Below are positions 1 through 7,353 of a stretch of 64,000 nucleotides of DNA, in pieces (within the stretch, counting starts at the first letter, position 1; each line of letters starts with the position of its first letter). A model generated the notes under the pieces. The model saw nothing but the letters and a program-made list of their open reading frames with translations, did not search any database and was not told where the DNA came from. The position numbers and the translations under genes were made by a program. The stretch spans positions 1 to 64,000 of the forward strand of contig JAFYPQ010000001.1 in NCBI GenBank assembly GCA_017559955.1, read 5' to 3'. The stretch comes from Bacteroidales bacterium (GTDB lineage: Bacteria; Bacteroidota; Bacteroidia; Bacteroidales; G3-4614).

Positions 1-1
1 A

Positions 2-334
2 AATTGGGGTGGCAATTGGCGAATGCCAACCAAAGCCGAGCAAGATGAGTTAAGAAATACAGATAACTGTACTTGGGAATGGACAACACTTAATGGGGTA
101 GAAGGTTATAAAGTAATAAGTAAAAAGAATGGTAACTCCATATTTCTTCCTGCTGCGGGCGTTCGCAGCGACGACGATCTCTACAATGCGGGTAGTAACG
201 GCTACTACTGGTCGAGTTCACTCCTCACGAGCAGCAGCGACTACGCTTACGACTTGTACTTCGATTCGGACTACGTAGATTGTGACTACTACGGCCGTTG
301 CAGCGGGCAATCTGTTCGCCCTGTATGTGAGTAG
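2..334 (+). CDS. DGR target protein, C-terminal part (FISUMP / C-type-lectin-like fold), cut by the window edge
   Basis: The frame is open from base 2, so the gene starts outside the window and the ATG at 23 is internal. The fragment opens with the NWGGNWRMPTKAEQDEL stretch typical of Fibrobacter-succinogenes-major-paralogue-type domains, runs through a GNSIFLPAAG core and ends SVRPVCE. Such domains are frequent DGR targets in Bacteroidota and adopt a C-type-lectin-like ligand-binding fold (family knowledge). The last ~55 residues are rich in Tyr, Asp and Ser at positions flanked by conserved framework (YYWSSS, GQSVRP), as expected of a diversified ligand-binding face. Broken DGR accessory and RT genes follow directly. 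A surface-exposed binding protein is likely; the ligand is unknown. Confidence 0.8.
   Translation, partial: NWGGNWRMPTKAEQDELRNTDNCTWEWTTLNGVEGYKVISKKNGNSIFLPAAGVRSDDDLYNAGSNGYYWSSSLLTSSSDYAYDLYFDSDYVDCDYYGRCSGQSVRPVCE
155..331 (+). other. DGR variable region (VR) at the 3' end of the target gene
   Basis: From about 155 to the stop codon most non-framework codons have the form NNC (gac, tac, ctc, agc, ggc, tgc), often in runs. This is the footprint of adenine-specific mutagenesis of AAC codons in a template repeat. GC content is clearly above the flanking DNA. The conserved stretch coding GQSVRP at the end would be the homing boundary. No copy of this sequence with adenines restored is visible elsewhere in the window, so the boundaries are inferred from codon pattern only. 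Confidence 0.7.
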
Positions 335-493: not shown

Positions 494-742
494 ATGGCAC
501 AGCTAAAAGAGGTATTGGAAATAGAACAAACACGCCAAACAGTAGAAGAATGTTTGGTGATTTATCTTTTTCAAGAGGGAACATTTTATAGAGCGTACGA
601 ATTGAGTGCCTGGTTGTGCTTTAGATATATAAAGCAGTTTAAGGCAACACATCGCCAATTAAAGACCGAAGGAGAAAGTTTGCTGCTTATAGGTTTCCCT
701 GAAACAAGTTTAGAGAGATATTTGACCGAAAGCAAATCTTGA
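494..742 (+). pseudogene. DGR accessory MutS-like (MSL) ORF, C-terminally truncated
   Basis: The 82-residue product contains LFQEGTFYRAYELSAWL (about residues 25-41) and GFPETSLERYL (about 68-78). This pattern matches the mismatch-recognition domain I of MutS (the GDFYELF and GVPYHAVEGYL positions) and the small MutS-like accessory proteins reported next to some Bacteroidota DGR reverse transcriptases. From memory, full versions are roughly twice as long. Here the frame stops at 740-742 inside sequence that encodes the RT in another frame, which suggests that a deletion joined the front of this gene to the middle of the RT gene. The short product might still be made, but is likely nonfunctional. 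The family assignment is from motif resemblance. Confidence 0.6.
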
Positions 743-1819
743 AAATAACCTTCAAGAGTTATGTGATGAATTGTTTAATAGAACATATAAAGCTCGACCA
801 TCAACCGGCTTTATAATAAGAGACCCCAAAAAACGAGAAGTGTTTGCTGCAAATTTCAGAGATCGCATAGTACATCATCTTTATTACAACTACACACATG
901 AAATTTATGAAAGAACATTTATTCATGATACATATAGTTGCATAAAAGGCAGAGCTACTCATTACGGAATAAGCCGGTTGCAGCAGCATATTAGAAAGGA
1001 GAGTCAGAATTACAAAATACCTTGTTATACTTTAAAAATGGATATACGAGGATATTTTATGCATATAAACCGAGAAAAACTTTTGCAAATATGTTTTGGC
1101 ACTCTTGAAAAAATGGCATCTCATAAAGTCTCAAAATATTTGCCTTACAAGTGGATTGAAGTTGTAGATTTTAAATTTGTAAAATATTTGACTCAGGAGA
1201 TTGTATTGCTAAACCCTCTTGAAAATTGTATAATAGAAGGAGGCTCTGAAGATTGGAGAGATTTGCCTCATGATAAGAGCCTGTTTAATAGCCCTATGGG
1301 GTGTGGTTTGCCAATAGGAAATTTAACATCACAGTTATTTAGTAATATATATTTGAATATACTTGACCAATATGTAAAAAGAGAGCTCAAAGCAAAATAT
1401 TATGGACGATACGTAGATGATTTTTATATAGTAAGTTCGGATAAAACCAAATTACTTGAATATGCGAATAAAATAAAAACAATGCTCCTGCAAGAACTAA
1501 ATCTGAAGTTTCACGACGGAAAGATGAAAATTATATCAATCAGACAAGGAGTTGAATTTTTGGGAGCTTTTATAAAACCATATAGAATATATGCTTCACG
1601 CCAAACTATAAGTAGAATACGAAAAAAACTCCCATTACTGCAATGTCAACAGCTTACTAAGATAGTATCCTCATTAAATTCATATTGCGGAGTATTGTCG
1701 CACGGGAAAACTATAAGTTAAGGAAATACTTATTTGTGAATGATTACAATTTTTCAGAAAAAATTATATTTGATAGCAATTTACTGAAAGTTTTGGTTGT
1801 TCACTCCGGTTGCCCTTAG
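726..1819 (+). pseudogene. DGR reverse transcriptase, N-terminally truncated and C-terminally frameshifted
   Basis: The frame is open from 726. Taking the TTG at 771 as residue 1, it shows the catalytic Asp in KMDIRGYF (about residue 91), motif 4 as GLPIGNLTSQ (179-188) and YVDD (214-217). The IGNLTSQ form, in place of QGxxxSP, is the DGR-type signature. There is no start codon or N-terminal ~40-60 residues: the frame opens at a stop (723-725) at the end of the MutS-like ORF. Near 1709-1712 the reading HGK-TIS-stop shifts to YKLRKYLF in the next frame, open to a stop at 1817-1819, so one base appears to be missing. The catalytic core is intact, but the gene is probably dead. A one-base sequencing error cannot be excluded for the 3' lesion. 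Confidence 0.8.
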
Positions 1820-2661: not shown

Positions 2662-5037
2662 ATGGTAAAAAAACAGATATTATTTACTCTTTTTGCTCTC
2701 TTATCGTTTACAGTATCAGCAGAAAACACGTTATCGACTGTTTCGCCCGATTCAATAAAATATAGCATAGACTTAGACGAGGTAGAGATAGTCTCAAATC
2801 CAAAAACCAATACGCCCTTGCAATATTTCCCCGGATCGGTCTCTTTGCTTGATGCAAAGGAGTTGGAGAAAAATAATGTTGTTTCAATTAAAGACCTTTC
2901 GTCGTATGTCCCAAATCTTTACATTCCCGATTACGGATCAAAACTTATATCGGCTATGTATATTCGAGGCATTGGTTCTCGTATAAACTCTCCTGCAGTA
3001 GGATTGTATGTCGATGATGTTCCGTATCTCGATAAAAGTTCTTTCGATTTTAATTTCAGTGATATCTCAAAGGTGGAGGTTTTTCGTGGTCCGCAAGGAA
3101 CACTGTTTGGCCGTAACACAATGGCGGGATTGATAAATGTATATACCGTATCTCCATTTGATGACGAGGGATTGAAAGTTAAACTCGGCTCAGGCAATTA
3201 CGATTCGTACAATGCAATGTTGGGATATAGAAAGAAAATTTCCGATAAATTCGCTTTTTCGCTATCAGCAAACGTTGATGCGCACGACGGCTATTTTGTT
3301 AATGAATTTACTAACGAAACTTGTGGCGATGAGGATGTTGCAGGGGCAAACGTTCGTTTGCAATTCCGCCCCAACTCATCGTTAGATATATCTCTTGCAT
3401 CAAGATATGAGTATAGCAACCAAAATGGTTACCCTTATCGTAAGTATAATAAACTTACGCAAGAGGTAAGCCCGATTAATTACAATAACTATTCGGGGTA
3501 TAAACGCAATATGTCGGTAACATCGTTAAAGGTGGCATATACCCATAAAAATTTCATCTTAAATTCGGTTACAAGTTATCAGTTCTTAACCGATGATATG
3601 AACCTCGACCAAGACTTTACTACCGTTCGTGATTTTACATTACAGCAAAAACAAAAGCAAAATAGCGTAACTCACGAGATTGTGGTTAAGTCGCCTCGCA
3701 CAAAACGTGGATGGGATTGGTTGGCAGGAGTATATGGATACTATTCTCATATACGTACAAACGGACCTGTAACATTTTATGATGAAGGTTTGCAATATAT
3801 GGTTGAGACCCCATTTAACACAATGTATGCCCAAATTGCATCACGACCGGGATTTGGTGGACCAAAAGATTTAACCTTGCAGCTTGATAAATCAACGCCG
3901 TTGTGTGTAGATGGGCTATATAAAACACCTTCTTGGGGAGTTGCCGGATATTCACAAGCAACATACAATAACCTCTTTACCGAGGGGCTTTCGCTTACTG
4001 TTGGTATGCGTTTGGAATATGAGAAGACAAAACTTAGTCATAAGACAGAATCGTTACGTAATATGACAGGTGCCATAGTGGGCAGTATGCAAGTGCCGGG
4101 TATGCCATTTTCTGTCCCCATTAACGAGGCTCGTAACGTGCCGTTGTCGGTCTCGGGCAACGAAAGTATGGATGCCTTAGAGTTCTTACCTCGATTTGAA
4201 ATAGAGTATAAGATATTGCCAACACTCTTTGCCTATGCATCGGTGGCTAAAGGTTATCGCTCGGGAGGGTATAACTTTCAGGCATTTTCAAATATAATAA
4301 GAAACGAGATGATAATGGGAGCAATAGGTAGCTACTCGTCAATGTTGCCCGAATCAATGCAACAAAGTTCGGATGTGAATGCAATGATAAGTTACGCACC
4401 CGAGCATAGTTGGAACTATGAAGCGGGTATGCACTATGATAATTCCGAAAAGAGAGTAGGGGTTGACTTGGCTCTTTTCTTTATCGATTGCAAAGACCAA
4501 CAAATATCGGTTGTTGAGGGGTTTGGCAGAGTAACTAAAAATTCAGGACGTACTCACAGTACAGGAGTTGAAACTTCGTTGCGATATTCTCCAATAAAAT
4601 CGTTGGCACTATCAGCATCATACGGATATACTCATGCAGTTTTCCGTGAAAACTATGATGGTGAACGTTCATATGCAAATAACTTTGTTCCGTTTGCACC
4701 GGCACACACATTGGCTCTTGATGCAACCTACACTTTGGATATAAACAAAAAATGGTTGGATGCGATTGATTTTAATGTAGGTATGACAGGGCAAGGTCGC
4801 ATATATTGGACCGAAGCAAACGATGTATGGCAAAACTTCTATGCTTTGCTGAACTCAAACATAACACTCCGAGCAGGAAACGCATCACTCTCAATATGGG
4901 GTAAAAACCTAACCGTAACTAACTACAACGTATTCTATTTTGAAACACTTAATGCAAAGGATGTAATGTCGCAATCGTCATTTGTGGAGAGAGGCAGACC
5001 TATTACATTTGGAGTTGATGTAGTTGTTCGCTTTTAA
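2662..5037 (+). CDS. TonB-dependent outer-membrane receptor (no SusD partner)
   Basis: The 791-residue protein begins with a signal peptide (about residues 1-20, cleaved near SAEN). It has a plug domain with the RGIGSRIN, GLYVDDVPY and VEVFRGPQGTLFGRNTMAG motifs (about residues 100-160), followed by a long barrel that ends in the aromatic VVVRF terminus typical of outer-membrane proteins. It lacks the N-terminal carboxypeptidase-like domain of SusC proteins, and no susD gene is adjacent, so siderophore, cobalamin or haem-type uptake is more likely than a glycan. It is divergent from a LuxR-type regulator, with its own promoter. The substrate cannot be told from sequence. Confidence 0.88.
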   Translation: MVKKQILFTLFALLSFTVSAENTLSTVSPDSIKYSIDLDEVEIVSNPKTNTPLQYFPGSVSLLDAKELEKNNVVSIKDLSSYVPNLYIPDYGSKLISAMYIRGIGSRINSPAVGLYVDDVPYLDKSSFDFNFSDISKVEVFRGPQGTLFGRNTMAGLINVYTVSPFDDEGLKVKLGSGNYDSYNAMLGYRKKISDKFAFSLSANVDAHDGYFVNEFTNETCGDEDVAGANVRLQFRPNSSLDISLASRYEYSNQNGYPYRKYNKLTQEVSPINYNNYSGYKRNMSVTSLKVAYTHKNFILNSVTSYQFLTDDMNLDQDFTTVRDFTLQQKQKQNSVTHEIVVKSPRTKRGWDWLAGVYGYYSHIRTNGPVTFYDEGLQYMVETPFNTMYAQIASRPGFGGPKDLTLQLDKSTPLCVDGLYKTPSWGVAGYSQATYNNLFTEGLSLTVGMRLEYEKTKLSHKTESLRNMTGAIVGSMQVPGMPFSVPINEARNVPLSVSGNESMDALEFLPRFEIEYKILPTLFAYASVAKGYRSGGYNFQAFSNIIRNEMIMGAIGSYSSMLPESMQQSSDVNAMISYAPEHSWNYEAGMHYDNSEKRVGVDLALFFIDCKDQQISVVEGFGRVTKNSGRTHSTGVETSLRYSPIKSLALSASYGYTHAVFRENYDGERSYANNFVPFAPAHTLALDATYTLDINKKWLDAIDFNVGMTGQGRIYWTEANDVWQNFYALLNSNITLRAGNASLSIWGKNLTVTNYNVFYFETLNAKDVMSQSSFVERGRPITFGVDVVVRF

Positions 5038-5062
5038 CGGGAGTAACTTTACCTGTAATAAT

Positions 5063-5093
5063 TTTGAAAATATATAAACAAGTATTAAGTTTG
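5063..5093 (+). promoter_or_regulatory. candidate promoter of the sialic acid operon
   Basis: TTTG (5063-5066), 19 bp, then TAAGTTTG (5086-5093): both boxes are consensus. Transcription would start near 5100, 60 nt before the first gene and just before a terminator-like hairpin. Confidence 0.6.
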
Positions 5094-5117
5094 CACCTAA
5101 ATGAGTGCTAAAAACAT

Positions 5118-5149
5118 AACCTGAATGAAGTCTCTCATTCAGGTTTTTT
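5118..5149 (+). terminator. Rho-independent-type hairpin: TonB receptor terminator or nan leader attenuator
   Basis: An 11-bp perfect stem (5118-5128 / 5135-5145) with a 6-nt loop runs into six T (5144-5149). It lies downstream of the TonB receptor stop but also downstream of the candidate nan promoter (5063-5093) and only 11 nt before the first nan ATG. Confidence 0.75.
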
Positions 5150-5159
5150 ATTTATCAAT

Positions 5160-6416
5160 ATGATGTCTACTAAGATTAAAGAAAAAAGTTTTTACCCTTG
5201 GTTGGTGGTGATATTATTATCGGGAGTAGCATTCCTTAACTATATGGACCGTCAAATGCTTAGTACAATGCGTTTAGCAATGGCGGAAGATATTGTTGAG
5301 GTTGCAGAGAGTAATACCGGTCCTTGGGGTTGGGGTGCATTGATGGCAGCCTTTATGTGGATATATGGATTGATGAGCCCCGTATCAGGAGCAATTGCCG
5401 ACCGATTGAATCGAAAATATTTGATTGTTGGCAGTCTTTTTGTATGGTCGGCAGTAACATTCTTGATGGGATATGTCGATAACTATTGGCAACTATATAC
5501 ATTACGGGCAGTAATGGGCTTTAGTGAGGCGTTGTATATCCCCGCAGCTCTATCGTTGATAGCCGATATTCATAGTGGGAAAACCCGTTCAATTGCAATA
5601 GGAATACATATGACAGGTCTCTATCTCGGACAGATAGCGGGAGGCTTTGGCTCAATATTTTCAAACCATCTCGAGTGGCAAAATCTCTTCTTGTTGTGCG
5701 GACTTGTTGGTATGATATATGCAGTAGTGTTAATAATGTTTATAAGCGACCCAGGTCGAGAGAAGAGAGAAACATCCTCTTCTCAACCACCCGTATTAAA
5801 AGCCATAGTATTGGTGTTGAGTAATGTCGCATTCTGGGCTGTATTGTTTGTTTTTACAACATTAAGTATGCCGGGTTGGGCAACAAAAAACTGGCTGCCT
5901 GAGTTGTTGGCAAATGTAATAAACAGTAATTGGGGAATAGAGATGAGCAAAGCAATGGATTATGCCGGACCTATCGCTGTAATAAGTCTTGCAGGAGCCT
6001 CTTTCCTTGGAGCTATGATAGGAGGAAAATTATCGGACAAATGGGTGCAAAAGCATATAAAAGGCCGTGTATATACAAGTTGTATAGGACTTGCCTTAAT
6101 AGTACCGTCGTTAATTTTTATGGGATTGGGAAATAGCCTTTTTGCGGTAATATGTGCCATTCTGTGTTTTGGAATAGGATACGGATTTTTCGATACAAAC
6201 AATATGCCCATTCTCTGTCAGTTTGTTCCGTCAAATCAACGAGCAACAGCCTATGGTTTTATAAATATGGCAGGAGTTCTTGGTGGAGCGGCTATTACAA
6301 CGGCACTTGGAAATCTATCACTCGGAACAGGATTTGCACTGCTTGGCGGAGTTGTGGTATTGTCGTTGATTGTTCAGATAACAATGTTGCGACCAAAAAC
6401 AATAAATAAAGAATAA
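5160..6416 (+). CDS. nanT: MFS transporter, probable sialic acid (Neu5Ac) importer
   Basis: The 418-residue protein has twelve predicted membrane segments. The MFS signature region is visible after TM2 (AIADRLNRKYLIVG, about residues 80-93) and a short cytoplasmic linker follows TM6 (about residues 198-210). The assignment to sialic acid rests on context: the next three genes are the lyase, the epimerase and a NanM-like protein, in one direction with short gaps, as in B. fragilis-type nan clusters. Two ATGs in tandem (5160, 5163) are both possible starts. It is preceded by a consensus promoter and a terminator-like leader hairpin. Sequence alone supports only a sugar-acid-type MFS porter. Confidence 0.75.
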   Translation: MMSTKIKEKSFYPWLVVILLSGVAFLNYMDRQMLSTMRLAMAEDIVEVAESNTGPWGWGALMAAFMWIYGLMSPVSGAIADRLNRKYLIVGSLFVWSAVTFLMGYVDNYWQLYTLRAVMGFSEALYIPAALSLIADIHSGKTRSIAIGIHMTGLYLGQIAGGFGSIFSNHLEWQNLFLLCGLVGMIYAVVLIMFISDPGREKRETSSSQPPVLKAIVLVLSNVAFWAVLFVFTTLSMPGWATKNWLPELLANVINSNWGIEMSKAMDYAGPIAVISLAGASFLGAMIGGKLSDKWVQKHIKGRVYTSCIGLALIVPSLIFMGLGNSLFAVICAILCFGIGYGFFDTNNMPILCQFVPSNQRATAYGFINMAGVLGGAAITTALGNLSLGTGFALLGGVVVLSLIVQITMLRPKTINKE

Positions 6417-6435
6417 AACATTATACATAACGATT

Positions 6436-7353
6436 ATGGAAAAGATTAAAGGACTTATTGATGCCCCATTTACCCCCTTTTATGAAAACGGAGAGGTAAA
6501 CTATGAACCAATAGCGGCTTATGCCGATATGTTGTATAAAAACGGATTGAAAGGAGTTTTTATAAATGGTTCGTCGGGAGAGGGATATATGCTTACCGAC
6601 GAAGAGCGTAAACGCCTTGCAGAACGTTGGATGGAGTGTGCTCCAAAAGATTTTAAGGTAATAGTTCACGTTGGAAGCTGTTGCGTAAAATCAAGTAAAG
6701 AGTTGGCTCGCCATGCTCAAGAGATTGGTGCATGGGGTATTGGTGCAATGGCTCCTCCATTCCCTAAGATTGGACGTATTGAGGAGTTGGTTAAATATAT
6801 CGAAGAGATAGCATCCGGTGCTCCCGAGTTGCCATTCTATTACTATCATATACCAGCATTCAATGGTGCATTTTTACCAATGACCGAGTTATTGGCTGCA
6901 GTTGATGGAAGAGTTCCTAACTTCGCAGGAATAAAATATACATTTGAAAGCATCTATGAATACAATCAATGTCGTTTGTATAAAGATGGTAAATTTGATA
7001 TGCTTCATGGACAAGACGAAACCATTCTTCCCTCTCTTGCAATGGGAGGAGCACAAGGAGGAATAGGCGGAACAACTAACTACAATGGACGAGAGTTGGT
7101 TGGAATAATAGAAGATTGGAATGCTGGTAATATTGAATCGGCTCGTGAGCGTCAAAACTTCTCGCAAGAGGTGATTAATGTTATATGTCATTATCGTGGA
7201 AATATTGTTGGCGGAAAACGCATAATGAAATTAATAGGACTTGATTTAGGCAAAAACCGCACTCCGTTCCGTAATATGACCGACGAAGAGGAGGTTGCAA
7301 TGAAGAAAGAGTTGGAAGCAATAGGATTCTTTGAACGTTGTAATAAATTTTAA
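6436..7353 (+). CDS. nanA: N-acetylneuraminate lyase
   Basis: A 305-residue member of the DapA/NanA TIM-barrel aldolase family that splits Neu5Ac into ManNAc and pyruvate in the cytoplasm. GSSGEG (45-50) binds the pyruvate carboxylate, YYYHIP (about 136-141) supplies the catalytic Tyr, and GIKYT contains the Schiff-base Lys (about 167). Full length for the family. The first ATG is 19 nt after the transporter stop, and the epimerase follows 3 nt after its own stop, so the genes are almost certainly co-transcribed. The equivalent gene is named nanL in B. fragilis. The ManNAc-2-epimerase neighbour argues for lyase over dihydrodipicolinate synthase activity. Confidence 0.92.
   Translation: MEKIKGLIDAPFTPFYENGEVNYEPIAAYADMLYKNGLKGVFINGSSGEGYMLTDEERKRLAERWMECAPKDFKVIVHVGSCCVKSSKELARHAQEIGAWGIGAMAPPFPKIGRIEELVKYIEEIASGAPELPFYYYHIPAFNGAFLPMTELLAAVDGRVPNFAGIKYTFESIYEYNQCRLYKDGKFDMLHGQDETILPSLAMGGAQGGIGGTTNYNGRELVGIIEDWNAGNIESARERQNFSQEVINVICHYRGNIVGGKRIMKLIGLDLGKNRTPFRNMTDEEEVAMKKELEAIGFFERCNKF

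Follow-up and report, generated by a model that had tools for sequence, protein, structure and literature searches.

A chromosomal diversity-generating retroelement with a MutS-like accessory gene, probably inactivated by an internal deletion, in a Bacteroidales genome

Results

The window (the whole stretch of 64,000 nucleotides that was analysed) opens with what is very probably, at roughly 0.88, a chromosomal diversity-generating retroelement (DGR) that carries a MutS-like (MSL) accessory gene and was inactivated by an internal deletion. The window is the opening 64 kb of contig G000:C43 of a MAG of 1.9 Mb (48 contigs, 86% complete) whose relatives are Bacteroidales, and its first base is also the end of that contig (G000:C43:1). 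Its first 1.8 kb contain, in this order and all on the forward strand, the 3′ part of a target gene, two hairpins, a MutS-like ORF and a reverse transcriptase (RT) frame. Rfam gave no match within the window. Viral contigs were searched for relatives of the locus and yielded none, so that a phage-borne element is without support.

The accessory ORF (494-742) encodes the 82 residues that an earlier sequence-only reading had ascribed to a truncated MutS-like gene, and its match to Pfam MutS_I (22.5 bits) lies above the cut-off of 20.6. Among the accessory types (Avd, MSL or HRDC) we take it to be MSL, in agreement with this match, which is made by the first ~79 of ~187 residues only. Residues 1-79 are homologous to relatives of 181-187 amino acids; they are followed by out-of-register residues and a stop codon at 740-742. 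A second accessory gene was not found in the rest of this genome, and a PDB search with the accessory protein found no solved relative.

The RT frame, open between 726 and 1721 (331 codons), follows a stop codon at 723-725, and the RT remnant itself occupies 733-1721. As had been read from the letters, it opens in mid-domain without a start: every possible start is internal, the first being TTG at 771. Matches to RVT_1 (E = 2.8e-14) and, as best PHROG, to the reverse transcriptase phrog_1423 (1e-80), together with an intact DGR-type SQ motif (LPIGNLTSQLF, motif 4) and YVDD (the YxDD motif), place it in the DGR clade; a PDB search shows that it resembles the 328-residue RT of 8ub7 and also group II maturases. 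The gene is not completely translatable: the start and about 36 N-terminal residues are gone and the C-terminal frame is lost. This second lesion (1700-1819) lies near 1700-1715, where the conserved tail (..NYKLRKYLF..) passes into another frame (ORF 1685-1819, stop codon 1817-1819), which suits the end of the locus at 1819 given by the sequence-only reading. There are no inverted repeats at 1690-1960, and no other RT was found in this genome. The remnant has a dN/dS of 0.09, only four changes at positions invariant in intact RTs and no excess of changes relative to the congener SIG122 (8 versus 8, with L041 as outgroup).

SIG122 (the congener G001, locus L040, SUXK01000002.1) was found when public genomes were scanned with the RT, as were three more distant Bacteroidales loci (L041-L043). 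Its RT is 85% identical to that of the window (85-86% over the remnant) and the accessory N-terminus 84% identical, and its locus has the order target gene with variable repeat (VR) (2757-4772), stem-loop, accessory gene (4926-5489, 187 amino acids), template repeat (TR) (5650-5853) and RT (5896-7050, 384 amino acids). The congener G004 (locus L083) has the same order, with an accessory gene of 181 amino acids, a TR and the RT N-terminus, until its contig ends inside the RT. The distant loci have accessory proteins of 181-215 amino acids, and their RTs are full-length and of similar size.

In an alignment to SIG122, the window tracks the accessory gene up to codon ~79, where it switches into the RT at codon ~37. 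On the left, the agreement with G004 extends up to and including ‘LERYLTES’; on the right, it resumes at ‘ANLDNN’. When the two flanks are compared with L083 and L040, the junction falls at 730-732, within the proposed interval of 725-735, at an AAG microhomology. Relative to G004, 812 bp are absent, comprising about 100 accessory residues, the complete TR and residues 1-36 of the RT; the size and the microhomology are derived from sister species and not from the pre-deletion parent of this species. These alignments, which the sequence-only reading had proposed, support its suspected loss of the accessory C-terminus, the RT N-terminus and possibly a TR in all three parts. SIG122 also retains the RT tail that in the window is out of frame.

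The intact catalytic motifs and low dN/dS of the RT could also be taken to mean that the short arrangement is a functional compact variant, with a fused or coupled product for example. This is highly improbable, as the frames do not join (the accessory frame stops at 740-742), the RT frame opens without a start, its C-terminal frame is lost and there is no TR. Furthermore, genes as short as these occur in none of SIG122, G004 and L041-L043, relatives in which such genes would have spoken against decay, and no examined relative has this form.

The target gene (2-334) is the 3′ part of an ORF with a FISUMP / Lcl_C-type lectin-like domain, although both domain matches (Lcl_C at 3.3e-6, and FISUMP) fall below the curated cut-offs. 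Its 5′ part is on contig C19, whose terminal 141 bases (G000:C19:1-141) are, in reverse complement, identical to window 1-141; when C19 and C43 are joined, the ORF encodes a lipoprotein of about 220 amino acids, with a lipoprotein-type signal read by eye. The overlap of exactly 141 bases ends just before the VR and looks like what a k = 141 assembly graph would yield where it branches at a node; it may reflect allelic variation at the target gene within the population.

The VR (143-331) was recognised by its adenine-specific substitutions relative to the G004 TR. Confinement of TR-VR mismatches to TR adenines is the classical signature of a DGR, and it is seen at both sister loci, where 20/21 mismatches in SIG122 and 29/29 in G004 fall on TR adenines. 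The SIG122 TR also serves at least two remote VRs, on C5 and C2, in which 23/24 and 22/23 mismatches, respectively, are at A. In the window, 25/58 adenine positions and 16/140 non-adenine positions of the G004 TR are mismatched (Fisher p = 2e-6), and part of the latter are expected because this TR comes from another species. The mutagenesis footprint that the target VR was said to carry is therefore present.

That the contig breaks off at the VR of the very locus in question, overlapping C19 by exactly 141 bases, indicates a region that is hard to assemble, and since the genome is a MAG, the deletion could be an assembly or binning artefact in an organism whose DGR is intact; the second RT lesion is a frame loss, of a kind that sequence errors can produce. 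However, the ~3 bp that the sister flanks have in common at the junction would not suffice for a de Bruijn misjoin, neither repeat (VR or TR) coincides with the junction, and a search of the genome for leftover pieces of the missing segment found none. An artefact is therefore considered unlikely.

At this locus and at both sister loci, a nested stem-loop follows ~20-40 bp after the VR, as it does after remote VRs of SIG122 and G004; in the window it occupies 369-425 (fold z -7.1). With a covariance model made from five copies, 14 sites were detected across the genus, including the five in the model itself, and all 14 lie 20-350 bp downstream of a VR-like stretch; no site was found in two congeneric genomes without FISUMP targets. 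The stem-loop is the counterpart of the BPP-1 target hairpin; a hairpin or cruciform downstream of the VR is a feature of DGR targets (PMC3240598). Its loop has a C-tract (379-393) of ~14 C, compared to 5 in the sister species, that is possibly slippery. A second, perfect hairpin lies just upstream of the accessory gene (459-487, fold z -7.7), and SIG122 has a similar one in the alignment.

A search of the rest of the genome for a TR matching the VR, as had been suggested, was carried out both by DNA similarity and with the rule that each TR position is either the VR base or A, with 3 mismatches allowed. The rule recovered the TR with 0 mismatches at both sister loci (L040 and L083). Here only VRs were matched, and no TR was found near the RT or elsewhere in the 86% of the genome that is assembled; a TR or an undamaged allele of the locus could lie in the remainder. 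With neither a TR nor a complete RT gene, the locus is a decayed and not a functional DGR.

Non-adenine columns should be the same in all VRs that are copied from one template. In SIG122 and G004 most VRs differ by 1-4% at these columns, the exceptions being SIG122:C4 (20%) and G004:C30 (9-12%), whereas the four VRs of this genome differ by 17-29% and therefore no longer have a common template. Similarly, pairs of stem-loop-bearing VRs have 22/129 non-adenine differences here (C43-C8), compared to 1/131 in SIG122 and 1/129 in G004. The SIG122 exception is a VR-like stretch (G001:C4:316910-317101, L071) that stands 20% off the template-served VRs; it is probably either long decoupled from the TR or a mere domain homologue.

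These results bear on whether a TR and/or RT at another site might still act in trans to diversify the VR of an incomplete locus. Incomplete loci of Thiohalocapsa PB-PSB1 are reported to diversify, which has been explored as trans activity (PMC10907252); 14% of the present genome lies outside the assembly, and the contig break beside the VR could reflect population variation. However, the assembled genome has neither a second RT nor a TR, and its VRs do not share a template sequence, so that diversification in trans is quite unlikely.

Inactivation by the deletion, the preferred reading, also has consequences for the target. In the BPP-1 DGR, inactivating the RT, the accessory protein or the TR each abolishes activity (PMC12875486); since the TR, the RT start and part of the accessory gene have been lost here, VR 143-331 would be frozen. 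The description of the locus as formerly active is supported; as to its being now frozen, the anatomy and the VR divergence indicate that the lipoprotein is probably fixed in its last version.

Because the RT remnant shows no accelerated decay, the break looks recent. The VR divergence suggests an earlier loss of the common template by the remote VRs than the remnant does for the break, and the VRs were therefore probably decoupled in stages. On the simplest reading, the remote VRs would have been cut off from the template long ago and the core locus broken recently.

Discussion

If the locus worked as other members of the DGR family do, the RT, aided by the accessory protein, would have copied TR RNA while making errors at adenines, and the resulting mutated cDNA would have replaced the VR of a surface lipoprotein, with the stem-loop downstream of the VR marking the target site. 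A deletion of ~0.8 kb through short homology would then have joined codon ~79 of the accessory gene to codon ~37 of the RT, with loss of the TR, and a further frame loss would have struck the RT C-terminus. Lacking the TR, the RT start and a complete accessory gene, the element could no longer mutagenise, and the VR of the lipoprotein and the remote VRs (on contig C8, for example) would be frozen.

The Bordetella phage BPP-1 DGR is alike in having TR and VR (in the window, the VR only), an RT, an accessory protein and a hairpin 3′ of the VR, but its accessory protein is Avd and its hairpin a simple one of 8 bp, where here the accessory protein is MutS-like and the stem nested. Inactivated DGRs are a known phenomenon, of which the window is a well-documented further example. 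Those with a broken RT already in the DiGReF survey (PMC3521204) likewise keep the adenine footprint in the VR; their lesions are nonsense, transposon or frameshift lesions with VR and TR intact, whereas here an internal deletion has also taken the TR, along with part of the accessory gene. Target genes also outlive their machinery in Treponema denticola, where isolates without the core DGR have remnant target genes (PMC4891356), and in Thiohalocapsa PB-PSB1, where most of the degenerate DGR loci are still diversified (PMC10907252); in contrast to both, the lesion in the window can be read at base level from congeners. The readable deletion and the close intact relatives are its particular value.

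The locus is in effect a natural DGR knockout with close intact relatives, and allows active target families to be compared with frozen ones in a single genus. The divergence between VRs at non-adenine columns, ~1-3% with one template as against 17-29% here, provides a simple test of template sharing. Furthermore, remote targets, which contig-based DGR surveys miss (PMC8144416), can in practice be located by the stem-loop that they share with local ones.

It is possible, though rather doubtful, that within this one Bacteroidales genus the diversifier has repeatedly been broken or lost, while the family of stem-loop-tagged VR lipoproteins has been kept and even expanded. If so, hypervariable repertoires would regularly end up frozen in the course of evolution, and the divergence of VRs at non-adenine columns would serve to date the event.

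Several further observations were made on congeners. In G003, which is 96% complete, neither an RT nor the accessory gene was detected; it has ~17 TR-like VR stretches, together with four or more stem-loops (contigs including L048, L053, L059, L064, L068 and L072), and six of its VRs differ by 5-15% at non-adenine columns. Five VR-like stretches occur in G006, which also encodes a single RVT_1 protein (G006:C14:13778-14350, L085; open frame of 449 amino acids) that the DGR RT query did not match. Very large proteins, with open frames of 1100-2200 codons and several tandem FISUMP domains, some of them matching the VR, are encoded at G000:C15:40845-47707, on G005:C44 and at G001:C3:38258-43663.
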